Part shown: in pieces, positions 1 to 15,593 of the stretch
Layout of the letters: the number at the start of each line of letters is the position of its first letter
Position numbering within the stretch: position 1 is the first letter of the stretch
Assembly (NCBI GenBank): GCA_017396725.1
Contig: JAFQLA010000034.1
Location: forward strand, 1 to 20,177
DNA from: Oscillospiraceae bacterium
Lineage (GTDB): Bacteria; Bacillota_A; Clostridia; Oscillospirales; Oscillospiraceae
Direction of reading: 5' to 3'
Length of the DNA stretch: 20,177 bases
Notes under the pieces: model-generated
Seen by the model: only the letters and a program-made list of their open reading frames with translations
Databases searched by the model: none
What the model was told of the DNA's origin: nothing
Translations under genes and position numbers: made by a program

Positions 1-1460
1 ATCTTTTCAACGCTGTCGGGGATCTCCACTTCATCCAGCAGGATGCAGTTGCAGAAGGCACCTTCGCCGATCTCATGGACGCTGTCGGGAATGGTGATAC
101 GGTTGAGCTTTTTGCATTCGCAGAATGCCCAGTCGCTGATGGAAACGATGCTGTCAGGGATATCGTACTGCACTTCACGGCTGGAAGCGGGGTAGGCGAT
201 GATGACAGATTTGTTCTTATTGAAAAGAACATGATCGTTGCCCTCGCGCTTGTTGGGCTCAGACTTATAATACTTGTTCTTGGGATCTACGCGGATGGAC
301 TTGAGGTTTTCGCAGCCTCTGAAAATCGCCTCGCTTATTGCGGTGACGGAAGCGGGGATCTCGATCTTGGTCAGGGACTTGCAGTTTTTGAAAGCGCCCT
401 TACCAATCTTCTTAAGTCCGTTGGAAAGCTCAATCTTGGAAAGGCTGATGCAGCCGTTGAAGACCAGATCGTCGATCTTGGTGACGGAGGCGGGGATAAC
501 GATACTTTCAAGACCTACGCAGTCGGAGAAAGCGCTTTCACCGAGAATGGTGAGCTTTTCGGGAAGGTCGATCTTCTTGAGGGATTTGCAGCTGTTGAAT
601 ACGCCGCCGTAGAGTTCGGTAAGGCCGCTGGGAAGGGAAATACTTTCCAAAGAAGCGCAGTTTTCAAATGCGCGCTCGCCGATCTTGATGGCGTGGTTCT
701 TGACTTCCAGTGTCTTCATCTGCACGCAGTCGCGGAAGGCGCTTTCGCCCACACGCTGGGTGCGGCCGGGGATGACCATTTCTTCCAGATTGCTGCAGCC
801 GCGGAAGCTTTCCAGCTGGATCTCTTCCAGAGATTCAGGGAGCTGAATGTGATGCAGAGCGCGGCGATCTTTAAAAGCGCCGGCACAGATGACGGTGATG
901 CCTTCATCCACTTCGATGGACTTGCCGTTATCTTCGCACTTCTGGAGCTTACCTTCAAAGGTGGTGAGGCGATCCATGGTGGTGGCGGGCAGGTCACGGA
1001 CCATGCTCTTGATGAGCTTATCCATGTTCTCGGTGGTGCTGTGGTGGGTGTTGGCAAGAAGAATTTCAAATGCGGGGGGAACAACGGCGTCATCGAGATA
1101 GATGGGGTAGAGACGCTTGCCGTTTTCTCTTGCTACGATAACTTCCATGCCGCAGAAGGGGGAGGACATGGAGGCGGCGGAAACGAAGAGCACTACTGCA
1201 TCGCATTTTTCGATTTTTTCGCGAAGCTCTTCGCGGAAATCGTTGCCGTTTTCGCAGGATTCATCATACCAGATACGATACTTTCTGTCATGGAGCGCAT
1301 CCAGAATGGGATAGACTTCCATAGTATCGCGGTGGGAATAGCTGATGAAGAGATAAGGCTCGTTTCCGGTGTAGGCTTCAAATTTGGTGGAAACATAATT
1401 GTAGCCGTTTTCCTTTGCTACATCTGCAGCTTTTTTGGTTCGCTGTGTAGTTGTTGCCAT
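1..1460 (-). CDS. TIR domain protein with BspA-type leucine-rich repeats (3' end cut by window edge)
   Basis: Open frame from ATG at 1460 to the left edge, so 486 residues are visible and the C-terminus is missing. Residues about 34-140 form a TIR domain: LFISYSHRD (37-45), IWYDE (63-67), and the alpha-C region VLFVSAASMSSPFCGME with E106 where TIR NAD hydrolases carry their catalytic glutamate. From about 185 onward come at least 11 repeats of about 23 residues with the pattern AFxxCxxLxxIxIPxSVxxIG, the LRR_5/BspA type; one longer insert near residues 385-415 interrupts the spacing. There is no signal peptide, so both parts should be cytosolic, unlike most BspA-type surface proteins. It is the last visible gene of the operon, 5 nt after the TrkA-RyR gene, whose final codons contain its GGAGG ribosome binding site. 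Family knowledge: bacterial TIR domains often cleave NAD+ or make signalling nucleotides. Inference: the repeats sense or scaffold a partner and TIR is the output. The domain calls are firm; the activity is unproven. Confidence 0.9.
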   Translation of the reverse strand, partial: MATTTQRTKKAADVAKENGYNYVSTKFEAYTGNEPYLFISYSHRDTMEVYPILDALHDRKYRIWYDESCENGNDFREELREKIEKCDAVVLFVSAASMSSPFCGMEVIVARENGKRLYPIYLDDAVVPPAFEILLANTHHSTTENMDKLIKSMVRDLPATTMDRLTTFEGKLQKCEDNGKSIEVDEGITVICAGAFKDRRALHHIQLPESLEEIQLESFRGCSNLEEMVIPGRTQRVGESAFRDCVQMKTLEVKNHAIKIGERAFENCASLESISLPSGLTELYGGVFNSCKSLKKIDLPEKLTILGESAFSDCVGLESIVIPASVTKIDDLVFNGCISLSKIELSNGLKKIGKGAFKNCKSLTKIEIPASVTAISEAIFRGCENLKSIRVDPKNKYYKSEPNKREGNDHVLFNKNKSVIIAYPASSREVQYDIPDSIVSISDWAFCECKKLNRITIPDSVHEIGEGAFCNCILLDEVEIPDSVEK

Positions 1461-1465
1461 GACCT

Positions 1466-3400
1466 TTATTCCTCCATGTTAGAATCTGTTGCAATGATTT
1501 TATACTTACGGCCCGATACATTCCATCTGTCATGCAGGATATCGGGGATGCGGACGATGAGTTCGCGGTCATACACGGTGGAGTCGGGGAGTCCCAACGC
1601 ATCCGAGCAGGCCTTGAGATCTTCGAAGGGGCAGATATACGGGTGCATTTTCAGCATCTGGCAGTTGTGTCTGCCCTTACTGATGCCGGAGCGCTTGTAT
1701 TTATCCACATCTTCCAAAGAAGCGGTGACCCAGCCTTCCGTTTCCAAAAAGGCCATCCAGCGGTCATGCTCGGCATAGGTGAGGCGGGCCAGAGTGCCTT
1801 CTGTGAGATATGGAGCGAGATCCACTTCTTCGGCATTTTCGTCTTCCGTATAATCCAAACCCAGAAGCGCCAGCTTATAGCGGATATGCATGGCGTTGGC
1901 GCGGTTGGAGCGCTTATTTACTTCAAAGAGGTTATAGCGTTCCAAAGCGCCGGTGACATCGATCTCAGTGTCGCTGAAGATGTCCTCATAAACGAGGTGA
2001 ACATTCCGGGAGAGAGATTCGATGTCGGAGTTGACCAGATTCTGATAAGTATACAGATTTTTGATGCCGCCGAAGGGGACGAGATCATAGCTGACCCGTC
2101 GCGCTTCGTTGGTTTCTGAGGTGCGAAGAGAACGGAGAAGTTCAAACTTATCGTCACTTTTGATATGGCAGAGGATGGGAGGAACGGCGCTGTAATCAGC
2201 GTCTTTTCTGTAGCAGGCTCTGCGCAGATGGATGGCTTGGTGAATGGTGCAGATATCATCTTCGTTGCAGACCATCACATAAGTAGGGGCATCAATGCCG
2301 TTGATCGCATTGGTAAAAGAGAGCTCATCGCTGTAGGAGCTGTAGCGGATATGGTAGCGGTCGCAGGAGAGGGCAGGGAAGAGTGCCAGCATTTTTGACT
2401 GCATAGCGGCAGCCTTTTCACCCACAACATCTACTTGCAGCGTATAACCGTCCAGCTGACCGCACCAAAGCACGGTGCGAAGAGCGGATTCGAGAATGCT
2501 GCCGTTGCCGCAAAGGAGGACATTGATCTTTCCGTCCTTTGCGTAACGGTAAAGGGGATAGCGATCCAGAAGATCATAGATCAGGAGTTCATTTTCATTG
2601 ATCACCTGAATATCCGTAAAGCCCTTTTGGGTGGAGTCGATCATGACATCCACATCGGGCATGCAGGAGAAGAGATAAATGTGGTTATTCTGCTGTGCGT
2701 TCTTGCTTTTATCCTTCAAAGAATCGATCAGCGAGAGCGCGTGGTTGAGATTCAGGTCGTCATCATCGGAGATGCAGAAGAAGTGAGAGGAACGGTTCTC
2801 CTTGAAGGTGATCCGGAGGCGGTTGATATCCTCCTCCGTGATCACGCAATCAAGAAGTTTTTCCGTTTCGCTGTAGCTGTCCTTGTCATTGCAGCCGGCA
2901 AAGATGATGCGGCATTTTTTCTGCGCGCGGCGGATATCCTCCGCCAGAGCGATGGAGCGCTCGTTGATTTGCGAGAAAATATACAAAGGACGCTTGTCTG
3001 CATTGATGAGACTGATCTTGAGGTTGGTAAAGAATTTCAGGAGAAGTGCGAAAGCAGTGATCAAGGAGAAGATGGGCAGCAGCGTATGCAGAAGACCCAG
3101 CACGAAGAAATAGAATCCCGCGATGGTGTCAGGGGTGATACGGCTCATGATGAGGTCATAGGAGGCGAGATAATCCGCATCCAGTGAGATGACCTGCATC
3201 ACATTGAGCAAGTTGCCGAAGAGCGCCGGAATGGGGCGGTAGTTCTCCAGATAGATCGGGATATAAATCAGGTATGTTGCCACGAGAAAGAGGATCAGCA
3301 TAAAAGTAACGCGCAGGGTGCCGAGCCTCTTTATCAAAAGCAGTCTCACTGCCAGAATCAGCAGCAGCAAAACGACTGCGAAAGTTATATACCAAATCAC
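1466..3400 (-). CDS. Membrane-anchored protein with two TrkA-N-like Rossmann domains and a C-terminal RyR domain
   Basis: 644 residues from a GTG start, preceded by AAGGAAG at 9 nt spacing. Hydrophobic segments at about 3-23, 29-51 and 92-124 anchor the N-terminus. Residues about 136-280 look like a first TrkA-N/RCK-type Rossmann domain (RPLYIFSQINERSIALAEDI), and about 291-450 like a second (INVLLCGNGSILESALRTV, with G298-N-G300). Residues about 536-625 match the prokaryotic RyR domain: AEHDRW (543-548), EGW (555-557), HPYICPFEDL (586-595) and YDRELIVRIPDIL. TrkA-N domains of potassium-transport regulators bind NAD(H) or nucleotides; bacterial RyR domains occur in proteins proposed to sense nucleotide-type ligands. 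There is no obvious pore loop, so I do not call it a channel. It lies between the peptidase gene (24 nt) and the TIR gene (5 nt), which suggests a sensor or transducer for nucleotides the TIR protein consumes or makes. That functional link is inference. Confidence 0.82.
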   Translation of the reverse strand: MIWYITFAVVLLLLILAVRLLLIKRLGTLRVTFMLILFLVATYLIYIPIYLENYRPIPALFGNLLNVMQVISLDADYLASYDLIMSRITPDTIAGFYFFVLGLLHTLLPIFSLITAFALLLKFFTNLKISLINADKRPLYIFSQINERSIALAEDIRRAQKKCRIIFAGCNDKDSYSETEKLLDCVITEEDINRLRITFKENRSSHFFCISDDDDLNLNHALSLIDSLKDKSKNAQQNNHIYLFSCMPDVDVMIDSTQKGFTDIQVINENELLIYDLLDRYPLYRYAKDGKINVLLCGNGSILESALRTVLWCGQLDGYTLQVDVVGEKAAAMQSKMLALFPALSCDRYHIRYSSYSDELSFTNAINGIDAPTYVMVCNEDDICTIHQAIHLRRACYRKDADYSAVPPILCHIKSDDKFELLRSLRTSETNEARRVSYDLVPFGGIKNLYTYQNLVNSDIESLSRNVHLVYEDIFSDTEIDVTGALERYNLFEVNKRSNRANAMHIRYKLALLGLDYTEDENAEEVDLAPYLTEGTLARLTYAEHDRWMAFLETEGWVTASLEDVDKYKRSGISKGRHNCQMLKMHPYICPFEDLKACSDALGLPDSTVYDRELIVRIPDILHDRWNVSGRKYKIIATDSNMEE

Positions 3401-3424
3401 TGCTATACACTTCCTTAGTTTGGA

Positions 3425-6400
3425 TTAAAAGGGGAGCTTGTGGTTGAACGGTGTGTGGGTGACGGAGGTGCCATAGGAGAGGGAGTATTTCTCAAGATAC
3501 TTGATGAAGCCTCTGCCGTAAGCATCGTCACGCAGCTTGGTCAGGATTTCCTGACGCTTGGCGTATGCCACTTCGTTCAAAAGGAGCAGATACTGGATCT
3601 CCACCCACTTGGCCATGCCTTCGTAGACCTCCAGCAGGTTTTCCTGACCGTATGCCTTGGCAAGTTCCTTGTCATTCCAGTTCAGGTACTGCCAGATATG
3701 GGTCAGTTCGTGGGCAATGGTAGCGACAGCTGCCAGCTTGGGAGAACCGTTTTCCACATAGATGCTGTAACCGGTGCGGTCACGCTGGGCAAAGCCAAGC
3801 ACGCGGCCGTCAAAGCCGGGAGTGGCGATGAAGCTCTCGCCCACATGCTTTGCGATCTTCTTGGCGTCAGTAGTGCGCACCTGGATGGGGGTGTTGATCT
3901 TGATGCCGTAGAAGATCTCCATGTTGCGAAGAACATTCTTGAAGATCTCGCGGAAATCGTCTGCCGTCTTCACTGCCGTCATGGAGCAGCGGTTGCAGCG
4001 CTCACGGCCGTCCTTCAGGCGGACATATTCGCCGCCCTTGAGTTCCACGCCGCAGAAGTCGCAGGTGTGGACACCGAACTTGTTGGGATCGTAAGTCTGC
4101 TCGATCTCGTGGGCAAGATCCAGACCGGAACGCACGCGATGGAGAGGATTGTCGTTGAAACCGTACTTGGCAAGGTATTCCATGGTCTCGCTGATGCGAA
4201 GGACCGCGGGAACATCCTCATAGCCCAGCTGCAGGAAGTTGTGCTTCTGATAAGCGGTCTTCTGCGGGGGAGCTGCCAGTTCTTCATCCTCGCCGCCGAT
4301 ATCCATCTGATCTTCAGCGGAAGCGGCTTCGGCATCCCAAAGAACGGTGGGGGCGACAGACTTGTTCTGCAGGGGAAGTGCGGGTTCTTCTTCGGGGAGA
4401 GGAGCGTCTTCTTCGGCGGCTTCATCCTGAGCTTCTTCTTCCACAGCGGGAAGTTCGGCTTCTTCCGTTTCAGCTTCCGCTTCGGTATCGCCTTCGGCGG
4501 GAGCTTCTTCAGAAGTTTCCTCTTCTTCAGCTTTTTTCTTCTTGCGGGTGAAGAATTCACGGATCTTGGCAAAGATGCCCTTCTTTTTCTTGCCGTCTTC
4601 AGCGCCTTCGGCAGCTTCGGTGCTTTCGGCAGCCTCTGCGCTTTCGCCTGCAGCTTCTGCGGAAGCATCGGCGGGAGCTGCACCCTCTGCGCCGTCCTCT
4701 TCTTCGCCCTTTTTCTTCTTGCGGCCGAAGAGCTTACCGAAGAATTCCTTGATCTTCTTGACAAGACCCTTCTTTTCCTTGGGAGGAGCGGGGACAAAGA
4801 CGGGGACATAAGGCTCATCGTCTTCAGGTTCGGGAACGACTTCTGCCATCTTTTCGGTGTGCCAGGAGAGAACATCGCTGATGATCTCGAAGTAGCGGTT
4901 GAGGTTGCGCTCTACGGAGACGATGAGGCCGAGGTCGATTTCACTGTCTTCAATGATGTAGATGCAGTCACTTTCGTCGCGGCCGCTGACATCGGGAAGC
5001 ATATACTTCAGCTTGCCTTCTTCGTTTTCCGAAGACTTGGGGATAACGGCAGAAACATACTGATGGGTGCTGGGATAAGTAGTTTTGAAGATCTCATTGA
5101 GCAGGAAGCAAATGGTGTATTTGACATCCCCGGGAACTTCAGGAAGACGGATGCGCAGCACGCTCTTGTTGCGATAGTGTCTTTCGGGAATATCGTTGAT
5201 GAGAACGCGCTTGCCGTTTTTCCAGTCGCCATAGGAAAGCATTTCCAGATAGCCGTCGGTAGCGACGGTGATATCGGCAAAGCCATAGGTCACTTCCAGA
5301 TCGGCAACGCTCTTGCGGGCGCCCATTTCCGTGCTTTCACGCCAATTGTCCAGCTGGAGTTTCTGGATCTGGCGGTAGTAGCGGCGGTCGGTGATATGGT
5401 CGGCAGCTCTGCGCAGGACCACACCGTTGAGAGGCGTGATGGTCTTGACTTCGTAGTACTTGCCGTCCAGCGTGATAAACTGACCGGGCAGCATAGCCTG
5501 GAATACATGGCCGTAAAGCTTGGCGCCGATGTAATGGCTTTCGTTTTCCTCGTCCTCTGCGATGTAGTACGCGTTTTTCAGAATATGCGCGTAGGTGTAG
5601 AGCTCGTTGCTCTCGTTGATCTCGTAGAGTTTGACGACGGTGGTGTTGATAGTATCCTCAGAGAGCTCTTCCTTGAAGCGGACGCTCAAAGAGGGATCGC
5701 TGACATTGCAGTGCTTTGCGATAAGACCCTTCAGCGTGGCGTAAGCGTCGGTGAACTGGATGCCGCAGAGCATCATCTCGTTTTCGATCTCGCTTTCACG
5801 GATGGGCATATTTACCATGCGCATCACCAGCTTGAGAACGAGGTTGCGCTCGGTTCTTGCAAAGTCGGGAACGATGGTGGGGATAGCCTTGGGGTCAGCG
5901 GAGAAGATAGCTACATTATCCAGCATGTAGTCACGCAGGAAATAATTCTCACTGATCACATTGACAAAGCCCTGCTTCATAGCGCGGGAGGAGAAGACGC
6001 GGGTCATTTCAAAGAGATTGCGGAACTCGTCTTCCACGGCAAAGAAAGCATTATCCTTCATGGAGCTGTTCCACAAATCAGCGCTGACATGGAAAGCGCG
6101 GTTGAAGGAATCCTGACTGACGGGAAGATCGGCATAGTCGCAGATCTGCTTATAGTACTGGCCGGCGATCCACTTCATATCCGCGACGGGGAACTTCTCG
6201 CCGCCGATCCAATTGACCTCGGGGATCTGATACTTCAGCGCCACGGTGTTGATCTCGGTGCCCACGCCCAGGAAACGGGAGACATTGGGCAGGATCTTGT
6301 GGTGCATGCTGCCGCCGTCTGCATCCCAGTACATCTGGGAGCTGTTGGCGCCGCCGCGGAGGGTGGCGGTGACGGAGGTGATGCTGGTTTTCAGCAGGTG

Positions 6401-7747
6401 AGAGAGGGAGTCTACAAGACCGTCACAGTTGCGGTCGCAGGCGCAGTAAACAATATTTTTGTTCTTATTCTCACACTCGCTGACCAGCAGCGTAAGACCC
6501 ACCTGATAGCTGGAAAGGATGCGGGAGGGCTCAATCATGATGACGATGCCCACCTTTTCAAAGAAGTCCTTGTTGTTCTGGTGGAGCTTCAGGTTGTGGA
6601 TATCACTGGGCTTGATGATGCCGATGTCAAACTCGTCGTACTCATAGTTGAGCACCTTGGAGCGCCAAAGACTGTCGGTGCCGGAGAATTCCACGATACC
6701 GTCATCTATCCATTCCTTTACATTATCCGCCGTTTCGTCACGGCCGACGATGATAAGGCACTTCTTGAAGCTGATAAGCTGCTGAACAATAGGCAGCACC
6801 AGATAGTGGGTCAGGTCATGGTAGAAGGGATTGCAGAAGAGGGTACTTTCGCCGCGCAGAAGATTGACGCTGTTATTGACATAGTTGATGTCGATATTGG
6901 CGCCGCCGCTTCTGAGCTGCTGGAAATACTTGCCTGCCATGCGGAGATTGGGATCCTCGCTCTGAAGCATCACATCCAGAGCTTCAAAGGTGCCGCTGTC
7001 ACCGTCATTGGTATCCAGCGTGTTTTCATAGAGAACTCTCGTGGGGAAGAGCTTGCGGAGAATTTCTCTGAGAAGACCGTAGTTAGCAACCTTATAGGAT
7101 TCTTCATCCTCGCCCAGAATATCTTCCACAAATTCACTCTGGGTCATACCCGAGAGGAAAGCCACAACTTCGGAGAAAATCACGATGCCGAAGCAGGGAT
7201 AGAAAACACCCTGGAAGAAGGGGGAGCGGGGGTAGAGCTGGGAAAGAGCGAAGAAGAGAATGGATACGCCGAAGAAAGCGTAGTAGAAGCCACGGTAATA
7301 GCCTCTGAACTTGGCGCATTCCTTCTTCACAAACCACTGGCCCGTGCGCTCATCATACTCGTAGAAGAGACCGGAGGTCTTTTCTGTAAGGGTCTGGGAA
7401 GAGGCCCAGAGCTTTGCGAGGATGGGCATCAAAATGCTCTTGAGAGCGATGAAGCCCACCAGGAAAGCACAGTTGAGCACATAGATGGCAATGGAGGCCC
7501 AGGCAATGTTCTGCAGGAAAGGCAGATACTTTGCCAGAAGGTTGAAGATCTTGTGCAGGAAATGGACCACAGTTTCCACCTTGCCGAAGAGGAACAGCAT
7601 CACGATGCCGTAGATCAAAGAGATGATGGGCATGGGGAACTGACGGGAGCGGTTGACCTTAGAGAGGTTCAGCTTTGCGCTGGCAATGCACAAAGCCGCA
7701 ACGGGGAGGATGCAGCCTAAAACCTTTAATACTTGCATAAAACTCAT
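3425..7747 (-). CDS. Giant membrane protein: degenerate SF2-helicase-like core fused to LIM/DA1-type zinc metallopeptidase
   Basis: 1440 residues. About five hydrophobic segments lie near 5-24, 38-55, 82-103, 150-171 and 180-200. Residues about 285-965 resemble an SF2 helicase in layout (a LxxGESTLFCNPFYHDLTHYLVLPI stretch is split here as GESTLFCNPFYHD at 299-311 and HYLVLPI at 314-320; then LIIVG at 331-335; a beta strand ending IMIEPS at 403-408 where a DExH box would sit; LPGQFITLDGKYYEV near 755; CIYIIEDSEIDLGL near 928). No Walker A GxGK[ST] or true DExH is visible, so it is probably ATPase-dead; this call is moderate. Residues about 970-1160 are low-complexity and acidic with two copies of a basic amphipathic motif. 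The C-terminus has two CxxC pairs (C1229/C1232 and C1251/C1254), then HELTH (1346-1350) and EVYEGMAKWVE, with E1376 as likely third zinc ligand. This is the order seen in plant DA1 peptidases. The ATG overlaps nothing but sits 2 nt after the upstream TGA, so translation is probably coupled. The protein likely cleaves a partner at the membrane; the substrate is unknown. Confidence 0.8.
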   Translation of the reverse strand: MSFMQVLKVLGCILPVAALCIASAKLNLSKVNRSRQFPMPIISLIYGIVMLFLFGKVETVVHFLHKIFNLLAKYLPFLQNIAWASIAIYVLNCAFLVGFIALKSILMPILAKLWASSQTLTEKTSGLFYEYDERTGQWFVKKECAKFRGYYRGFYYAFFGVSILFFALSQLYPRSPFFQGVFYPCFGIVIFSEVVAFLSGMTQSEFVEDILGEDEESYKVANYGLLREILRKLFPTRVLYENTLDTNDGDSGTFEALDVMLQSEDPNLRMAGKYFQQLRSGGANIDINYVNNSVNLLRGESTLFCNPFYHDLTHYLVLPIVQQLISFKKCLIIVGRDETADNVKEWIDDGIVEFSGTDSLWRSKVLNYEYDEFDIGIIKPSDIHNLKLHQNNKDFFEKVGIVIMIEPSRILSSYQVGLTLLVSECENKNKNIVYCACDRNCDGLVDSLSHLLKTSITSVTATLRGGANSSQMYWDADGGSMHHKILPNVSRFLGVGTEINTVALKYQIPEVNWIGGEKFPVADMKWIAGQYYKQICDYADLPVSQDSFNRAFHVSADLWNSSMKDNAFFAVEDEFRNLFEMTRVFSSRAMKQGFVNVISENYFLRDYMLDNVAIFSADPKAIPTIVPDFARTERNLVLKLVMRMVNMPIRESEIENEMMLCGIQFTDAYATLKGLIAKHCNVSDPSLSVRFKEELSEDTINTTVVKLYEINESNELYTYAHILKNAYYIAEDEENESHYIGAKLYGHVFQAMLPGQFITLDGKYYEVKTITPLNGVVLRRAADHITDRRYYRQIQKLQLDNWRESTEMGARKSVADLEVTYGFADITVATDGYLEMLSYGDWKNGKRVLINDIPERHYRNKSVLRIRLPEVPGDVKYTICFLLNEIFKTTYPSTHQYVSAVIPKSSENEEGKLKYMLPDVSGRDESDCIYIIEDSEIDLGLIVSVERNLNRYFEIISDVLSWHTEKMAEVVPEPEDDEPYVPVFVPAPPKEKKGLVKKIKEFFGKLFGRKKKKGEEEDGAEGAAPADASAEAAGESAEAAESTEAAEGAEDGKKKKGIFAKIREFFTRKKKKAEEEETSEEAPAEGDTEAEAETEEAELPAVEEEAQDEAAEEDAPLPEEEPALPLQNKSVAPTVLWDAEAASAEDQMDIGGEDEELAAPPQKTAYQKHNFLQLGYEDVPAVLRISETMEYLAKYGFNDNPLHRVRSGLDLAHEIEQTYDPNKFGVHTCDFCGVELKGGEYVRLKDGRERCNRCSMTAVKTADDFREIFKNVLRNMEIFYGIKINTPIQVRTTDAKKIAKHVGESFIATPGFDGRVLGFAQRDRTGYSIYVENGSPKLAAVATIAHELTHIWQYLNWNDKELAKAYGQENLLEVYEGMAKWVEIQYLLLLNEVAYAKRQEILTKLRDDAYGRGFIKYLEKYSLSYGTSVTHTPFNHKLPF
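4532..4780 (-). repeat. Intragenic duplication encoding two basic amphipathic motifs with acidic linker
   Basis: Within the 1440-residue protein, residues 990-1013 (KEKKGLVKKIKEFFGKLF then GRKKKK) and 1053-1072 (KKKKGIFAKIREFFTRKKKK) share the pattern KKG[LI]x[KA]KI[KR]EFFxxRKKKK followed by EEE. The copies are offset by 63 residues and are separated by an Ala/Glu-rich linker; another acidic Ala/Glu/Pro stretch follows up to about residue 1150. Each copy can form a helix with one hydrophobic and one strongly basic face, typical of peripheral membrane or nucleic-acid binding. The function is inferred. Confidence 0.75.
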
Positions 7748-7749
7748 GG

Positions 7750-9783
7750 TCAGTCATCACCCTCCATTTCATCAAATACATCTTCGCGCTCGACCCAAAG
7801 CTTCTGAACGAACTTATAGGGTGCGGCAACAATGTCACCGGTGGAGTTGATGGGAATATCCACTTCATTGTTGCAGGGAGGGAAGTAATAGAGATTGTTG
7901 TATCTCGGAAGCACATTGGGATCGAAGAACATGGTCACATTGGGCACGATCTCATCCTCGCGGGAAAGCCCGTAAGCCGCAAGCCAGGAAGCGTCGCGGT
8001 CCATGGCGGAGAGGGTTGCCTTCTTGTGATTGCTGAGATTGATGGTATTGGAGGAGCGGGACTCCTTGTGCTTACTGATACCGTCCAGAATGGACTGACC
8101 CTTCATGTAGGTGCAGATATCCGAGAAGAACTTCTGGAAGGATTCGGCGCCTGCATGCACTTCGTTGATGACACTGCGCATAAGCACATTGTACTGCTTC
8201 ATGAGGTTTACAAGGGTCTTGCGCTGGATCAGCAGAGCAATGAGACCGCCCACCGCCATCACGATCACCACACACAGCGTCAGCAGCAGGGCGTTGCCCA
8301 GATACTTGACACCGGTTTTTGTGGAGCTGATGATGTAGGGGAAGTAACCCATGCAGCCCAGCAGCAGCGCGATAATGCCCGCGATAATGGCAGACTTTTT
8401 GCGCATGCGCACGGCGATCTCTTTCTTTACATCCTTGGAAATATCGCTGATGTTCTCTTCCAGTTCCTTGCGGTTCACATAGCCGATGGCGCGGGAGGAG
8501 ATGATCTCATCGCGCAGCTCTGCCATTTCTTCCTGCAGGTCTGCTGCCTGGAAGCGGTCCAGCAGGTAATCGTCATCACAGAAGCTTTCGCTTTTTGCTT
8601 TGAGGAAACCGGCGGACTTATCGATGGATCTGCGGGGGGCCTTAAGGAACTTATCGATATTTACGCGCTTGCGCTTGAGCTGCGCGTTCCAATAAGACAT
8701 TTCATCCGTGGGGCAATCCCGGGCGAGACCCACTTCGCCGCAATCGATGTAAAGCTCGCTGCCTTCGCGGCAATCGATGGAAACGGGAATGGTCTGGCGG
8801 GGGAGAAGCTCCTCATCTTCATCGAAGGTATAGCCGGGCCGCAGGCTCAGCTGTTCTTTGACGAAGGCATGGACGGAGACCAGCTTATTGAGATGGGTGT
8901 TGAGCATTTCTTCCAGCTGGTCGCCGGCAACCTCCACGCCGATCTTGTAAAGACGGTAGGCCTGAAGGCTGCTGGCCTGCACCTTGTTGATGGCAAGGGT
9001 CAGCACGGAGAGCCAGAATTCGGTCAGCTCCTTGATATAAAGGGAATTGTCCGAATTGGTGAGCTCATAAAAGAGGAAACGGGTATTATTGGGGTATTTG
9101 TTGCGTTCCCAGAAGGAGGAACTGGTCATTTCCAGACGGTTCTTCCAGGATTCCGCAATGCGCCGCGTTTCGTTGTCTTCTGCCTTGTGAGTCGTGGAGA
9201 TCAGCTGGATCTCAGTAGGACGGACATCAGAGAAGGAATACTTTTTCTTCAGTTCCTTTTCTGCCTGCTGCACCTCTTCGGGAACCGCCTTTTCCATATA
9301 AATGGGGTTCAGGGATTCCTTATCTTCGGAGAGCTGCTGAAGCTGCTCGTCAGTCAGATCGGCTTCACGAACGCGGACAAGCGTGCCTTCTTCTTCGTCG
9401 AAGTATTCAAAGCCTTTTTCAAATTCCTTTTTGGATACTGCCGTGTAGCCGCCGATGATATGCGTAAGGCGCACCATAGGGATGGGACTTTCATGGGGCG
9501 TTTCAATCTTATCGGAAGCGGAGAAATCAAAGGGGTTGTTTCGGCTGGGCACGGGGGTATCCCGGTAGTTCCAGGCGGAATCTGTATTGATCACCATGGC
9601 CCGCCAGTCTTTTTTACCGCGGATCATGTTGTACAGGTCGGGAACGGATGATTTCACATCCGTTCCCGATTCATTCCAATCACAAAAGCCGATGAGACCT
9701 TCGTCCACGAATGGTTTGAAAAGGAATTTGTAATCCTTCATTAAATCCGAAGAACGCTTATTCAAAATAATAACAGTATACAT
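7750..9783 (-). CDS. Unknown two-TM protein with coiled coil, conserved-looking operon member
   Basis: 677 residues; I do not recognise the family. The N-terminal 110 residues alternate hydrophobic strands and helices (MYTVIILNKRSSDLMKDYKF, WRAMVINTDSAW, NPFDF, PMVRLTHIIGGYT), compatible with an alpha/beta domain of receiver-like size, but no phosphoacceptor set is clear. Residues about 150-420 are charged and mostly helical. A coiled-coil-prone stretch (LQEEMAELRDEI through ISDISKDVKKEIAVRMRKK) leads into two TM segments at about 462-485 and 497-520. A helical, then extended C-terminus (about 520-677) follows; there is no signal peptide, so both large domains should be cytosolic with a hairpin in the membrane. 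The start is ATG at 9783 with AAAGGTGG upstream. It follows the tubulin-like gene by 31 nt and precedes the peptidase gene by 2 nt. Placement suggests it links the tubulin-like protein to the membrane, which is inference only. Confidence 0.8.
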   Translation of the reverse strand: MYTVIILNKRSSDLMKDYKFLFKPFVDEGLIGFCDWNESGTDVKSSVPDLYNMIRGKKDWRAMVINTDSAWNYRDTPVPSRNNPFDFSASDKIETPHESPIPMVRLTHIIGGYTAVSKKEFEKGFEYFDEEEGTLVRVREADLTDEQLQQLSEDKESLNPIYMEKAVPEEVQQAEKELKKKYSFSDVRPTEIQLISTTHKAEDNETRRIAESWKNRLEMTSSSFWERNKYPNNTRFLFYELTNSDNSLYIKELTEFWLSVLTLAINKVQASSLQAYRLYKIGVEVAGDQLEEMLNTHLNKLVSVHAFVKEQLSLRPGYTFDEDEELLPRQTIPVSIDCREGSELYIDCGEVGLARDCPTDEMSYWNAQLKRKRVNIDKFLKAPRRSIDKSAGFLKAKSESFCDDDYLLDRFQAADLQEEMAELRDEIISSRAIGYVNRKELEENISDISKDVKKEIAVRMRKKSAIIAGIIALLLGCMGYFPYIISSTKTGVKYLGNALLLTLCVVIVMAVGGLIALLIQRKTLVNLMKQYNVLMRSVINEVHAGAESFQKFFSDICTYMKGQSILDGISKHKESRSSNTINLSNHKKATLSAMDRDASWLAAYGLSREDEIVPNVTMFFDPNVLPRYNNLYYFPPCNNEVDIPINSTGDIVAAPYKFVQKLWVEREDVFDEMEGDD

Positions 9784-9814
9784 AAACTGCCACCACCTTT
9801 ATGGCATTCGGGAT

Positions 9815-12800
9815 TTAACTTCTTCTTTCCTGAGCTGCTTTTCTATGTTCGTGAATTTCATCGCACAGATCCAGAAGTTCTCTGTCTTCCAGGCTTTCTA
9901 CTGCCACACGGATCATATCGTCAACATATTCGCTGAAGTTATCGTTCCAGGTGGAGAGATACCAGTCGATGTTCTTGTCGAAGCGGATGTACTGATCATA
10001 GATGAACTTGCCATAGGTATTATCCAACTCGTTGGGAAGGGTGATCTTCTTCATGTAGTCGTAGATCACATCCAGCATGACGCGCATGATGTCGGTGCCG
10101 GTGTTCTTGTCGAAGTTGAGAGCGGGGGTGGAGACCTTCAGCAAGGTAGCCATATCGAAGATGGTGAGATCCTTCTTATTGAATTCCTTGGCTTCCAGAG
10201 CATCCAGCTGCTTCTTCAGGCGGCTGGTTTCAAAGGTGACCTTGGAAGCGCCGTTGATCTCGCGGGCAAACATGCGCTCAGCTGCGTCCAGAATGCAGGT
10301 GACGATCACGGGGTTGATGGTCAGAGCATCCAGCACTTCATAGAAGTGGTCGCAGGGAGTCTTGTTGGAAACTACGAAATCTTCAGGCTTGCAGCCCTTG
10401 ATGTAGAGCTTGTAGAGGTACTTGCCTTCGGAAACCTTGGAGTAGCCGATCATATCCAGCAGGATACCCAGCATGAATGCCTTGTAGATGCGGGTTTCCT
10501 GTGCCTGCTGGTTAGCGTCGTCCAGATCGGGAATGGCAGAGATGATGTGCCAATTGCGGTCGATATGGGGAGTGATAACGGGGGTCTTGTCAGACTTGGG
10601 CTTGATCTGGCTGACCAGTTCATAGTAAGCCTTGAAGTATTCGCCTTCGCCGCGGCCGGTTTCGTTGGCGGGAGCGAATTTGGAGAGCTTGTTGGCACGC
10701 AGACCGTAGATGGACTGATAGAACATGATCATGCCCAGAGGAATGTCTTCATCGGGAGTGCCGCCGAAGTTCTTGAGTTCCTTGGCGATGAGAGCGCTGC
10801 GGGGAGAATCGTCTGCGGGATCGAGCTTATTGTTGTAAGCGCAGGCGGAGAGGGGTTCCTTCTGCTCACCCAGAGGTCTTTCGATGAAGGGGTTGGAGAG
10901 CTTGCGGGTCTCAGCGATGACGTGCTTGACATACTGTTCGACCTTGCTGGGATCGCATTCGCCCTGTTCGTATTCCACTTCCTTTTCCAGTGCGGTGATG
11001 ATGTCCATATTGACGTTATCGCCGTAGATCTGCATGAGCTTGGTCTTGAAGTAGCCGATGATGCCGGATTCAAAGATCTCGTTGAAGTAGCCGTTGTTGT
11101 CGGGCTTTTCCTTCAGCATGGAGTAGTTGCGGACCTTGGAATAGATATCGTCAGCAAGGCTGCCGTCGATGGAAACGGTGCTGCCAGTATAGGGCATGGA
11201 GTTGACCATCTTCTCCAGGCACTTGGTGGAAGCGCAGACATATCTTGCGGTTCTGCCGGAAGTGTGGTTGTACTTCTTGGAGATGACGGAGATTCTTCTT
11301 TCGATGATGTTGATCTTGCTTTCGAAGGAGAGGTAGAAGCTCTGGAATGCTTCGCAGAGGTTCTTTACATAGTCGATGCCTTCGTTGAAGACGGCGTCCA
11401 GGATGCAGTTGACGCGGTATTCATCGGCAACCTGCATGAATCTCACGAATGCGGCCTTCAGATCCTGCATTTCGCCGGTGAGCTTACCCATCTTGGCGGT
11501 GAGGGATACCTTGCGGTCGGTGAGCTGTTCGATGCCTTCTTCTTCGTCGGTCTTGGGGTTATCGAAGTTGTTGACGAATTCTTCGAAGAACTTTTCGCTG
11601 TCGCGCAGCTTCTTTTCGATCATGCGCTTTTCCTGACGCATGACTTCAAAAGCGTTGTACAGGAAGTAGCGGACTGCGTTGGGATGGATGAAGTTGCCTT
11701 CTGCGTCGCGCAGATAGGTCTCCAGCTGATAATCCTGCTTATCCTTGGTGATGGAATCGTTCTTGGCTTTGAAGATGGAGTAAGCGATGGTTCTTGCAGT
11801 ATCGTCGCTGCGCTTTACGATCATGGCGCGATACTTATCCATTTCGCGGTAAGCATCCTGGAATGCGGACCAGACTTCGCTGCCGCCCTGGATCTCGTTG
11901 ATGATCAGCTGCGCGCTCTGACGCTGTGCGTCCAGATCGCCCTGGCCGGAGGAAGCGCCGATGGTGACAAACTGCTTGAGGTTGTGAATATAGCTTTCCC
12001 ACTTCACGGCTTCGCGGGTAAGGCCGCTTTCGTCAAAGATGCTGCACTGGTTCACGATGGACATAGCGAAGGGATCCTTCTGCTTTGCCAGCTGGTTGAC
12101 GGACTCGATGTAGTCCTGAGAAGCGTTGGCGTCCTTGGCGATGTAGCCGTGGCTGCGCATTTCGGCGTTGTTGATGCACTTTTCCTTGTACATGCGGTCG
12201 AAGGTGAGCCACTGGTCGCTAACGCACTGCTGGGTCCACTTCAGAGCGATGTATTCCTTGACATCTGCCAGAGGATAGATGAGCATGGAGCTGCCGGCGC
12301 CTGCATAGCGGTTGCGGCCCTGCTCGGCGCAGAGTTCACGGATGGTGTTGTCTTCGGAGGAGTTACTGCGCTTGTTCATGGGGCCGATGGACTGGGAATA
12401 GATGCAGTTGGCGGCATGATCCAGATACTGGTTGAAGTCGTTGAGCTTCTTGCCCTCGGTGTTCTGCGCGTCAAAGAGGAAGCAGAAGTCATAGGGGCGG
12501 ACATTGTATTCCTCGAATTCGCCGGAGCCGACGCGGGGGAATTCCAGCTTGACGGTATCGGCATACTTATCGGGCAGGGTAGCATCGCCCTTCATGAGGA
12601 AAGCGTCCAGCTCGCGCAGGGTTGCGTAAGCGTTGCACTTGAGGTTGTTTCTTTCGGACTGACCGCGGATCACTTCATAGAATACCTCGGGCAGGATAAA
12701 GAAGCCGCGGCAGATGTTGGCGCTCTGCTGGAAGCGGGTGTTGAGGAAGTTCTTGATGTAGAGAGCTACGGGCAGGATCAGACCGGAACCGGTACCGCCG

Positions 12801-13240
12801 GCCAGAGAGCTGACGATGATCACGCGCAGAGCCTGATCGGACTGCTCTTCTTCCAGCTTGTAGAGGTCTTCAATTGCCTGATGCAGGGGCTCCATGTTGC
12901 CGGCGCGGATAGCGGTATCCAGAGCCAGACGGGAGATGGCGCGTACCTGACCTGCGCCTTCGGTCAGCGTCTTGCTGTTAAGGATGGCATTTACGGGGAA
13001 CCAGGTGTCGCGGGCGTGGGTATCGATATTGAGATACTCACCGACGGAGAGCTTGGTAGAAGTCTGCACCGTCTTGATGAAAGGATTGGCTTCACGGATC
13101 TCGCGCAGTTCGTTGATGTCGGTATCAAACACGGCAAAACCAATGCGCTGGCGCTGTTCTTCAGTCACCATTTTGGAGACGCGGCAAACGATCTTAGAAC
13201 CGGTACCGCCAAGACCAACCAACAGAGTAGGGGCAATCAT
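9815..13240 (-). CDS. Large FtsZ/tubulin-like GTPase (Tubulin_2-type)
   Basis: 1141 residues. The N-terminal 160 residues show the tubulin/FtsZ nucleotide-binding loops in canonical order: T1 GLGGTGSK (9-16), T2 region FDTDINEL (38-45), T3-like EGAGQVRAISRLAL (94-107), and T4 signature AGGTGSG (147-153) after a hydrophobic strand (VIIVSSL). FtsZ is about 350-450 residues, so roughly 700 extra residues follow; these are largely helical and include coiled-coil-prone segments near 540-680. The C-terminal part has no TM segment and no recognised domain. The start is fixed by a near-perfect AAGGAGG 7 nt before ATG, 22 nt after the vWA gene. FtsZ-like proteins outside cell division have been proposed to remodel membranes or scaffold membrane complexes. 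Here the neighbours are almost all membrane proteins, so a GTP-dependent scaffold for the complex is plausible. The fold call is strong; polymerisation and the T7 catalytic residues could not be confirmed by eye. Confidence 0.9.
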   Translation of the reverse strand: MIAPTLLVGLGGTGSKIVCRVSKMVTEEQRQRIGFAVFDTDINELREIREANPFIKTVQTSTKLSVGEYLNIDTHARDTWFPVNAILNSKTLTEGAGQVRAISRLALDTAIRAGNMEPLHQAIEDLYKLEEEQSDQALRVIIVSSLAGGTGSGLILPVALYIKNFLNTRFQQSANICRGFFILPEVFYEVIRGQSERNNLKCNAYATLRELDAFLMKGDATLPDKYADTVKLEFPRVGSGEFEEYNVRPYDFCFLFDAQNTEGKKLNDFNQYLDHAANCIYSQSIGPMNKRSNSSEDNTIRELCAEQGRNRYAGAGSSMLIYPLADVKEYIALKWTQQCVSDQWLTFDRMYKEKCINNAEMRSHGYIAKDANASQDYIESVNQLAKQKDPFAMSIVNQCSIFDESGLTREAVKWESYIHNLKQFVTIGASSGQGDLDAQRQSAQLIINEIQGGSEVWSAFQDAYREMDKYRAMIVKRSDDTARTIAYSIFKAKNDSITKDKQDYQLETYLRDAEGNFIHPNAVRYFLYNAFEVMRQEKRMIEKKLRDSEKFFEEFVNNFDNPKTDEEEGIEQLTDRKVSLTAKMGKLTGEMQDLKAAFVRFMQVADEYRVNCILDAVFNEGIDYVKNLCEAFQSFYLSFESKINIIERRISVISKKYNHTSGRTARYVCASTKCLEKMVNSMPYTGSTVSIDGSLADDIYSKVRNYSMLKEKPDNNGYFNEIFESGIIGYFKTKLMQIYGDNVNMDIITALEKEVEYEQGECDPSKVEQYVKHVIAETRKLSNPFIERPLGEQKEPLSACAYNNKLDPADDSPRSALIAKELKNFGGTPDEDIPLGMIMFYQSIYGLRANKLSKFAPANETGRGEGEYFKAYYELVSQIKPKSDKTPVITPHIDRNWHIISAIPDLDDANQQAQETRIYKAFMLGILLDMIGYSKVSEGKYLYKLYIKGCKPEDFVVSNKTPCDHFYEVLDALTINPVIVTCILDAAERMFAREINGASKVTFETSRLKKQLDALEAKEFNKKDLTIFDMATLLKVSTPALNFDKNTGTDIMRVMLDVIYDYMKKITLPNELDNTYGKFIYDQYIRFDKNIDWYLSTWNDNFSEYVDDMIRVAVESLEDRELLDLCDEIHEHRKAAQERRS

Positions 13241-13262
13241 ACTATATCCTCCTTAAATTTGT

Positions 13263-15407
13263 TTATCTGTTCAGGTAGCAGGTATAAGTGTATTCCGGGG
13301 ATTTCAGGGAGATTGCGGAGTTTGCGTTGATGCGATAGGGTTTTACGCGGTTTTCTTCAATGGACATGCCGTTGAAGGTGATATTGTCTTTCCCTGCGAA
13401 AGCTTTCACATTCATGATGTTGATGCCTTTGCTCTTGGTGGCTTTGAGCTTCGCCGTCTTCTTGTAGGGAGAGGGAGAGAAGGTCAAAGTGCCGGTTTCC
13501 GCTTTGTAGGGGATAAGGGTGCTTGCAAGGTTACGGTTGAATACGCCGTGAGCCTCTCTGTCGCGGACGCCGATCTTTTCTGCGCGGCAATCAATATAAG
13601 GACGCTTTTTCAGCTTTCTGGGCAAATATTTCTTGAAGGGGGGCACATAGCCGAGGAAGAGGAAGAAGATGCCAAGACCGATGGCCAGCTTCAGACCGTT
13701 TTTCTTCAGCCAGTCCTTCAGGCGGTCCATGCCGGAGATGCCGTCCTGCAGCTCGAAGGAATCTTCCAAAGAGCCTTCGGCAGTAGAGGAACCGTCCACA
13801 TAGGAGCCTTCCACCAGCATGTCAATGGTGCCGCCGTGGGTTTCCAGAGGATCACCGTCCTTAACGGTGGGGTATACATGGTAGGTGCCGATGGTTTCGG
13901 TCTGTTCGATGCGGAACTCGCCTACATCAGCCTTGGTGGTGATGGTGGGGATACCCAGAAGTTCCCACTGCTCGGGGGTCAGCTCCTTGACCTCGCCGTC
14001 GGTCTCGATCTGTACGGTGAGGATCATGGGCTGGGTGTCATCGGAGATACCGGAGGTGGAGAGCTTGTAGGTGGGCTTTTCCGTGAACTTGAAGATCAGG
14101 TTGCTGAAAGCGAAAATGTCATAGGAGAGTTTGGTGTTTACGGTGTTGTATTCCAGGAAGTTTGCCGTAACATCGATATCCAGATGACCTTCACGGATGG
14201 TGACGGAGTCGCCGGAAACGGCGTCCACCGTGGTGGGTTCGCCGCCGGTTACGGTGTTGGTGATGGTGGCGGCATAAGTGATATCACCGAGGAGGGAGGT
14301 ATCGGTGACCTTTTCACCGGTCACGGCGTTGAGGAAGCCGAACTCCAGGCGGTAGGTACCGGCAATGAGCTGTTCTTCCTGTGTTACCTCCTTGCCCTCT
14401 CCGTCGTAGAGGTAGGCGGCGATGGTGACATTGGGCTTGTAATAGATTTCCACCGTGTCGGCACCGGTGACATCGAAAGTGTAGGTGCCGGGTTCAAAAT
14501 TGCTGTCGAAGGTGGCTACATAACCGCTGAGGTTATCGGCGATCTTGGTCTCGCTCAAAGGATAATTCGTGTCGGTGGTAGCCTCGCTGCTGTACATGAC
14601 CTTCACATTGGAGTTTGCGGTGTACTTCTTGCCGACGGAATCAGTGATGCTGCCGATCTTTACATCCTTGCCCTGCGCGAAAACAATGAGCTCGCTCATG
14701 GGGATGTTAAAGGTGGAGGTCTTGTTGGCGGAATCGTAAGGCAGGGCGTTATTCTGGAAAATGCGGTTGCAGACGCTGGTCAGCAAGGCGGGAATATCGG
14801 TGTTGTTTTCTGCCTTGTAGAAAAAGATGCCCTTGCCGGTATTGGGGGTGATGGTAGCGGCCTTGGGACCCATGGAGAACATGATGACACGGGTCTCGCC
14901 GTCGGCTACGCAGTCGTAGAAATAATTCTCCACGGTGGAGTTTGCGGTGCCGTTGAATTCACCGTCCGTCAGAACCACCAGCCACTTTTCGCAGTCGGTC
15001 TCTGCCTGCAGATCGGTATAGGCCTTTTTCACGGAGTTGAAGGGTGTGTCGGAAGCGTCGGTAATGGTATCGTGGATCTGCTGAACATTGGATTCCGTAA
15101 CGGAAGCTTCCTTGCTGCCCTCAAGCACGATCTTGGGGGGAGCGGAGGTGCCGGAGACGTAGTCGCTCATGTAGTAGATATTCAGCGTGTCGTTTTCGCC
15201 CAGCATGGCGGCAAATACTTCCATAGCGTATTTGGCCTGACACCAGGTATCCACATACTCGCCGTCCGTGCGGATCATACTGCCGGAGTCATCGTAGACA
15301 AGGTTGATGACCCTTGCGGGAACATAGGTCTCCGCGGAAGCGGTCACCGGCAGCAATGCTGTGACCGCCAGGACCATCATAAGCATAAGGGAAACAATTC
15401 TTTTCAT
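13263..15407 (-). CDS. Exported vWA-domain protein with C-terminal membrane anchor
   Basis: 714 residues from ATG at 15407. An in-frame ATG at 15449 is rejected because only 15407 gives a proper signal peptide at the N-terminus and has AGAGG 7 nt upstream. Signal peptide 1-25 (MKRIVSLMLMMVLAVTALLP, then VTASA) is followed by a vWA domain of about 30-230 with an intact MIDAS: D39-x-S41-x-S43 (DDSGS), T121 (DTPFNS) and D148 (VLTDGE), predicting Mg2+-dependent ligand binding. Residues about 240-560 are beta-rich and Ig-like. One TM segment (LAIGLGIFFLFLGYV, about 572-590) precedes a basic stop-transfer (KKYLPRKLKKRP) and a cytosolic tail of about 110 residues, beta-rich and ending in a vaguely FHA-like pattern (weak). 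It is the first gene of the operon, behind its own promoter. Topology predicts an outside vWA domain with a cytosolic tail facing the tubulin-like protein. The likely role is sensing or adhesion across the membrane; the ligand is unknown. Confidence 0.92.
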   Translation of the reverse strand: MKRIVSLMLMMVLAVTALLPVTASAETYVPARVINLVYDDSGSMIRTDGEYVDTWCQAKYAMEVFAAMLGENDTLNIYYMSDYVSGTSAPPKIVLEGSKEASVTESNVQQIHDTITDASDTPFNSVKKAYTDLQAETDCEKWLVVLTDGEFNGTANSTVENYFYDCVADGETRVIMFSMGPKAATITPNTGKGIFFYKAENNTDIPALLTSVCNRIFQNNALPYDSANKTSTFNIPMSELIVFAQGKDVKIGSITDSVGKKYTANSNVKVMYSSEATTDTNYPLSETKIADNLSGYVATFDSNFEPGTYTFDVTGADTVEIYYKPNVTIAAYLYDGEGKEVTQEEQLIAGTYRLEFGFLNAVTGEKVTDTSLLGDITYAATITNTVTGGEPTTVDAVSGDSVTIREGHLDIDVTANFLEYNTVNTKLSYDIFAFSNLIFKFTEKPTYKLSTSGISDDTQPMILTVQIETDGEVKELTPEQWELLGIPTITTKADVGEFRIEQTETIGTYHVYPTVKDGDPLETHGGTIDMLVEGSYVDGSSTAEGSLEDSFELQDGISGMDRLKDWLKKNGLKLAIGLGIFFLFLGYVPPFKKYLPRKLKKRPYIDCRAEKIGVRDREAHGVFNRNLASTLIPYKAETGTLTFSPSPYKKTAKLKATKSKGINIMNVKAFAGKDNITFNGMSIEENRVKPYRINANSAISLKSPEYTYTCYLNR

Positions 15408-15564: not shown

Positions 15565-15593
15565 ATTCTAATCTTAGAACAACGCAATGTCAA
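15565..15593 (-). promoter_or_regulatory. Sigma-A-type promoter for the six-gene operon
   Basis: On the minus strand, -35 TTGACA (15593-15588) and -10 TAGAAT (15570-15565) are separated by 17 bp, a consensus -35 and a 5/6 match -10. Predicted transcription start is near 15558, giving a leader of about 150 nt before the vWA ATG. No other equally good promoter was seen inside the operon, though internal ones cannot be excluded. Confidence 0.75.

Follow-up and report, generated by a model that had tools for sequence, protein, structure and literature searches.

What does a run of six large genes in the genome of an Oscillospiraceae bacterium, probably an inhabitant of the gut, do, and which of the six belong together? 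The genes, here termed A to F, lie on a 20,177-nucleotide stretch (assembly GCA_017396725.1, contig JAFQLA010000034.1, positions 1 to 20,177; hereafter the window). All are on the minus strand, with successive gaps of 22, 31, 2, 24 and 5 nucleotides in the window's list of open reading frames (ORFs), as an initial annotation made from the sequence had claimed. Genes A to D (the cassette) are the four-gene core of the locus: A codes for a vWA protein, B for a tubulin-like protein, and C and D for predicted membrane proteins; genes E and F, which encode a membrane protein with a ryanodine receptor (RyR)-type domain and a TIR protein, are optional additions. We tentatively favor, at somewhat short of an even chance, the view that A-D are likely assembled into a single membrane surveillance complex with a predicted role in activating the neighboring TIR protein, and that the RyR domain of E would sense the product made by TIR from nicotinamide adenine dinucleotide (NAD+).

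The A-B-C-D order is kept in all 33 mapped loci, namely the window and 32 genomes (mapped were 11 loci from a scan of genome contigs and 20 genomes from samples of the family and order, plus G040 and G291; G and L numbers are our labels for genomes and loci). The 11 loci of the first scan, with B identities of 53-82 percent, all show the four genes co-directional and in the same order within the limits of their contigs (that of L002 stops inside C and that of L006 starts inside A). All 33 loci have A and the N-terminal portion of D, and 31 have the zinc-ribbon and zincin part of D, the two remaining contigs stopping inside D. C scores above 25 bits in 27 loci; in the other six it was called by position and size only, from a gene of 678-788 residues at its place. 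In automated calling, longer antisense ORFs masked B in three loci and, in G662, C, and these were recovered separately; D is divided into two genes in G008, G320 and G787. Homologues of A-D are hence not scattered genes lacking a shared neighborhood, and the six-gene unit of the initial annotation holds for these four; E and F recur without being fixed members. The closest relatives of the window set are gut metagenome-assembled genomes (MAGs). The B profile was found in 12/299 family-sample and 22/295 order-sample genomes; the set is sporadic, Tubulin_2 exceeding its cut-off in 10/293 class genomes, some of them of another kind. G189 has such a different locus, of the type reported in PMC7159879, with a DO-GTPase2, a pair of tubulins and a protein weakly matching GAP1-M; G217, G087 and G236 match Tubulin_2 and have no A-D set, G069 has B plus only a distant D-like gene, and the contig of G125 is too short to judge. 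One cassette (L005 7516-19551), with a B protein 61 percent identical, is in a MAG titled Myxococcales, by horizontal transfer or misbinning.

Among the seven window proteins scanned against Pfam, A gave no match whatever, and C, D and E gave matches solely below the curated cut-offs. A nonetheless carries DDSGS and the Asp of a metal ion-dependent adhesion site (MIDAS), and DxSGS occurs in 31 of the 33 A-type proteins scoring above 80 bits, the others being a fragment without that end and a protein reading DDSTS; the vWA domain with intact MIDAS that was claimed earlier is thus borne out. Its predicted layout is an N-terminal signal or transmembrane (TM) segment, the vWA domain, a later TM and about 120 residues inside the cell. 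Hydropathy further gives C two TMs, D at least four, and E two N-terminal hydrophobic regions with space for up to four, which supports the membrane association proposed for the locus. B matches Tubulin_2 (PF13809) at an E-value of 1.1e-59 (203 bits against a cut-off of 27), and its GTP loop, GGTGSG, is also seen in 119 of the best 120 listed of 1727 relatives. The PF13809 match, a GG.TG(S/T)G-type loop and an adjoining vWA gene with MIDAS fit membership of the Tubulin_2/FtsZl1 family; B is a predicted GTPase of the FtsZ-like kind first assigned to it.

FtsZl1 beside vWA has already been described, in operons predicted to act in membrane remodeling (Makarova and Koonin 2010, PMC2875224), and so have tubulin-vWA conflict systems with GAP1 (Kaur et al. 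2020, PMC7159879). According to the available text of the former paper, its operons share with our locus a Tubulin_2/FtsZl1 protein, a vWA neighbor with intact MIDAS and several membrane proteins. Unlike those operons, the seven window proteins gave no P-loop GTPase, kinase or OmpA match; a term search of that paper's main text returned no "helicase", "peptidase" or "TIR", its unnamed families being ones that could include C or D. The GAP1-N2 systems of Kaur et al. comprise, in the published description available, GAP1, a zinc-ribbon GTPase, FNIII and, in Firmicutes, two tubulins. The locus could be such a system that has lost its GTPase, and in Firmicutes the two do have in common a tubulin, an extracellular vWA domain and parts at the membrane (PMC7159879). 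We consider this highly improbable. Pfam found neither GAP1 nor DO-GTPase among the seven window proteins, and the window has one tubulin gene versus the two reported from Firmicutes. GAP1-M occurs in 1/33 cassette genomes (G003) and DO-GTPase2 in 2/33 (G003 and G009), always on a contig other than that of the cassette, both being recovered in the control G189; this absence from cassette contigs makes the derivation less likely. C, D and E are, moreover, outside the published description as far as it is available. Identity with the GAP1-N2 tubulin systems was accordingly rejected, and on the best reading the locus is a variant of the FtsZl1-vWA systems. The literature searched yielded no description of a set that joins C and a dead-helicase zincin to a RyR-TIR output.

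The first 1000 residues of D model as a degenerate superfamily 2 (SF2) helicase, a feature overlooked by the initial annotation. The model displays the two-domain SF2 fold with a C-terminal domain, as in DUF1998/MrfA helicases, and shares the fold of MrfA (PDB 6znp) over residues 256-968. Unlike MrfA, D is membrane-bound, lacks ATPase motifs and has a zincin motif. A motif search of the D-type proteins found no helicase P-loop and no DEAD/DEAH box; GKS or a similar triplet occurs in 14 of 43 rows, where by eye it sits before the first strand and not in the following loop. Among the best 120 listed of 294 D relatives, the CxxC-CxxC pattern is present in all 120 and HExTH in 119. D thus appears from its model to combine a helicase-shaped, apparently ATPase-dead core with a predicted protease motif. 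It had been taken for a DA1-type LIM zinc peptidase, an identity that finds no support here. A LIM domain has two zinc sites. D has a four-Cys zinc ribbon rather than eight Cys, and the DA1-like profile matches window D at an E-value of 0.28 and 2/10 members at 1 or below, the best at 0.15; D is not shown to be a peptidase of that type. C has an alpha/beta N-terminal half followed by long helices with a two-TM hairpin at 463-525, and fold searches with it gave no fold assignment.

These membrane proteins can also be accommodated by a strong rival, in which A-D are an envelope or secretion machine for membrane remodeling or surface-protein handling, partnered by a transglutaminase-like protein and in some genomes also by a type VII secretion ATPase, and in which E and TIR merely guard it. 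A transglutaminase-like gene is found near D, or fused to its C-terminus, in 14/33 loci, and a lipobox was recognized by eye in the L088 copy. EssC-type ATPases lie near two cassettes, scoring 939 bits in G518 (cut-off 778) and 753 bits, below the cut-off, in G841, and membrane remodeling is what was originally proposed for FtsZl1-vWA in the available account (PMC2875224). Set against this, EssC-type proteins were detected in these two loci only and diverged FtsK-like proteins in two more, from a scan that covered part of the loci, and the presence of E and TIR beside the set is left unexplained. On balance we deem an envelope or secretion machine somewhat unlikely. The EssC-type genes are at L115 10573-13998 and L098 13848-18425.

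The candidate output of the preferred surveillance complex is specified by F and E. F matches TIR_2 (8.6e-19) and LRR_5 in Pfam. A glutamate is a functionally important residue of TIR domains, and it is conserved in 20/20 aligned rows representing 18 distinct domains (column read by eye), so both the domain and its key glutamate are as the initial annotation had them. The RyR domain of window E has no Pfam match (PF02026), and the L003 homologue scores 0.025; a nine-row profile of E nevertheless matches solved RyR repeats, PDB 6uhi at 3e-6 over about 32 residues and another at about 0.02. In the E-type alignment, a first His is kept in 39/41 rows, a Trp in 41/41 and a second His in 41/41 (two of the 41 rows are repeat copies, and two further gapped fragment rows were excluded), while Asp stands at the ligand position in 26 of the 27 rows having a letter there, 16 rows being gapped. 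The RyR assignment made at the outset is supported by this residue set. A phage RyR protein, RyDEP, binds and cleaves 2'/3' cyclic ADP-ribose (cADPR) via H75, W78, H100 and D117, according to the available text of a 2026 preprint (PMC13232231). The step from the first His to Trp is three residues in E-type proteins, as in RyDEP, and the Trp-His distance is 22 in E of G443, G662 and G751, equal to that of RyDEP, and 27 in others. Some E proteins linked to a cassette, the G751 one among them, have exactly the spacing that the RyDEP numbering implies, H-x2-W-x21-H-x16-D (the final step was counted by eye); the correspondence rests on order and spacing and not on alignment with RyDEP itself. E thus keeps the residue set that binds cyclic ADP-ribose in RyDEP, and we predict a ligand site there. 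The two share the R12-type RyR domain and its four ligand residues; RyDEP, as the preprint presents it, is a phage evasion enzyme or sponge, whereas E is membrane-borne and its gene frequently neighbors one for a TIR protein.

How firmly E and TIR are tied to the cassette can be judged from their distribution. E was found in 8/11 first-scan genomes by single-sequence search and, by profile, in 14/27 tubulin-bearing genomes (G565, at 4e-6 only, excluded from the count) and 21/293 class genomes. It is thus present in 22/33 cassette genomes (one of the 33, G002, having a contig that stops inside C) versus 19/290 others (Fisher 3e-15), and within the class sample alone in 2/3 versus 19/290 (p 0.014). 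On the contig of B itself, E lies no more than about 20 kb away in 13 of the 22 genomes and 32-36 kb away in two; the remaining seven carry it on another contig, and in some of these seven the B contig stops within the cassette. At the level of loci, E is present in 16/33 and TIR in 11/33, in keeping with the nucleotide-type partners first proposed, and E directly adjoins TIR in 7 of the 16. Control sequence from eight cassette genomes, taken as twenty 20-kb stretches (400 kb in all), contained one TIR and one FtsK match and no match to E, A-D or the transglutaminase.

The same distribution admits an alternative that we rate as unlikely, in which two neighbors share a variable island, A-D being an accessory cassette beside which E-TIR, a module in its own right, frequently lands. 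E was looked at in 18 of the 19 E-positive class genomes without a cassette and scored above 25 bits in 17; a TIR gene lies within 1.4 kb of it in 5/17 such loci, two of the five involving a partial E segment in a longer protein. Additional TIR genes are also seen near the cassette in G001, G003, G004, G009 and G011. This alternative sits poorly with the placement of E close behind D or its transglutaminase, with at most two intervening genes, in 8/16 loci and just upstream of A in two more, and with its complete absence from the control sequence. E and TIR are in our view likely a frequent but optional nucleotide-signal output of the A-D complex.

As we picture it, the vWA domain of A would sense the envelope from outside the cell, B and C would provide a membrane-bound scaffold, and the zincin of D would cleave a partner once sensing has occurred. 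TIR would convert NAD+ to ADP-ribose or a cyclic form, and binding of this product to E would open or re-shape its TM part, leading to growth arrest or death; phage, a rival cell or envelope damage are candidate triggers. Signature residues and gene neighborhood are the grounds on which we infer this relay, in which an ADPR-type signal would connect TIR to RyR. Thoeris combines a TIR signal with a nucleotide-sensing effector, and our locus would operate in the same way should E read the TIR product, the sensor here being a membrane RyR protein. The F TIR domain matches ThsB models at 6.5e-5 or weaker, its best PADLOC match being SAVED_TIR (2.1e-7), and the PADLOC ThsA model gave no match among window genes A-E. 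In animal cells, cADPR has been proposed to act through the ryanodine receptor. A bacterial counterpart of that circuit, in which a tubulin-scaffolded surface sensor fires TIR and a cADPR-type product gates a channel-like E via RyR, is quite doubtful.

Several observations weigh against the surveillance complex with its TIR-E relay. There is no clear E in 11/33 cassette genomes and no TIR in 22/33 loci, many genomes being fragmented, so the relay is not obligatory; the lack of E also suits an independent E-TIR module. Conversely, 19/21 E-bearing class genomes have no cassette. The Fisher value is overstated because the E profile derives largely from cassette genomes, 11 genomes were searched by single sequence and the genomes are related. 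The TIR excess is modest, at 10/32 loci versus 1/20 control stretches (p 0.035, the lengths compared being unequal), or 17 genes in 957 kb versus one in the 400 kb control (p 0.016). In window E the Trp-His distance (38) and the His-Asp distance exceed those of RyDEP as published in the preprint text, and the quality of the D model is middling (predicted local distance difference test score, pLDDT, 69.7). PADLOC defense families are no commoner around the cassette than in the control stretches, contrary to the earlier expectation of nearby known defense genes, and phage defense is therefore not shown. The overall picture of the initial annotation stands in its order-conserved set, membrane association and nucleotide-type partners, and lacks support in its six-gene unit, DA1 peptidase, WYL regulator and proximity to defense genes; no homologue of the window WYL gene, which had been noted as divergent, turned up among ORFs from the loci then compared with it. 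An immune function of the system is plausible, and the locus may be an unrecognized cell-defense or envelope-surveillance machine, since E and TIR likely exchange an NAD+-derived alarm signal.

Table 1. Positions of the genes, domains and motifs of the locus within the window
Feature	Position	Strand	Description
Gene A	13263-15407 (alternative start TTG 15449)	minus	vWA protein; no Pfam match
Gene B	9815-13240	minus	Tubulin_2/FtsZl1 family, 1141 aa
Gene C	7750-9783	minus	677 aa, two predicted TMs
Gene D	3425-7747	minus	1440 aa membrane protein; helicase-like core, C-terminal zinc ribbon and zincin motif
D residues 256-968	4844-6982	minus	Modeled SF2 helicase fold of MrfA/DUF1998-like type; P-loop and DEAD box absent
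D zinc ribbon CxxC-x18-CxxC	3986-4063	minus	
D zincin motif HELTH...E	3620-3712	minus	
Gene E	1466-3400	minus	Membrane protein; Rossmann/TrkA-like region (by eye) and C-terminal RyR domain
E RyR (R12-type) domain	1526-1813	minus	H545, W548, H586, D611
Gene F	1460 to past the window's first base	minus	TIR (about 1068-1349) and BspA-type LRR_5 repeats; incomplete in the window

Upstream of gene A, at 15565-15593 on the minus strand, there is a sigma-70-like site, an 11/12 consensus match only. Other genes lie around E. A second TM protein family of about 700 residues, weakly like the CASTOR/DMI1 ion channels, lies beside it at L086 14779-16896, L085 17178-19301 and L095 17251-19347. A 1427-residue protein at L115 5375-9658 joins a kinase domain to an E-resembling segment, and its family adjoins E in G001, G002 and G011 and lies three genes away from it in G518. 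In G291, a gene running divergently from E (L064 13033-14259) has a Card1-like endonuclease match (2.8e-6). Among the neighbors with TIR, a weak match (4e-4) fused to a methyltransferase at L001 20849-22258 (minus strand) belongs to a family recurring near the cassette in G001, G009 and G011. A run of genes for a TIR protein, a methyltransferase and a terpene-cyclase-like protein is near the cassette in G003, G004 and G009 (L003 4545-7605, L004 15553-17508), joined in G004 and G009 by a PRA-isomerase-like protein.

The function of the FtsZl1-vWA systems was a matter of prediction only in both the 2010 and the 2020 paper, as far as their available texts go (PMC2875224, PMC7159879). The variant described here adds to these systems a testable output, namely TIR action on NAD+ and RyR sensing, together with the unusual architecture of D, a membrane protein that joins a protease motif to a helicase-shaped core apparently devoid of ATPase activity. 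If the proposed reading is true, a tubulin-like scaffold would be tied to NAD+ signaling, and the RyR domain would have a cellular, membrane-borne use.

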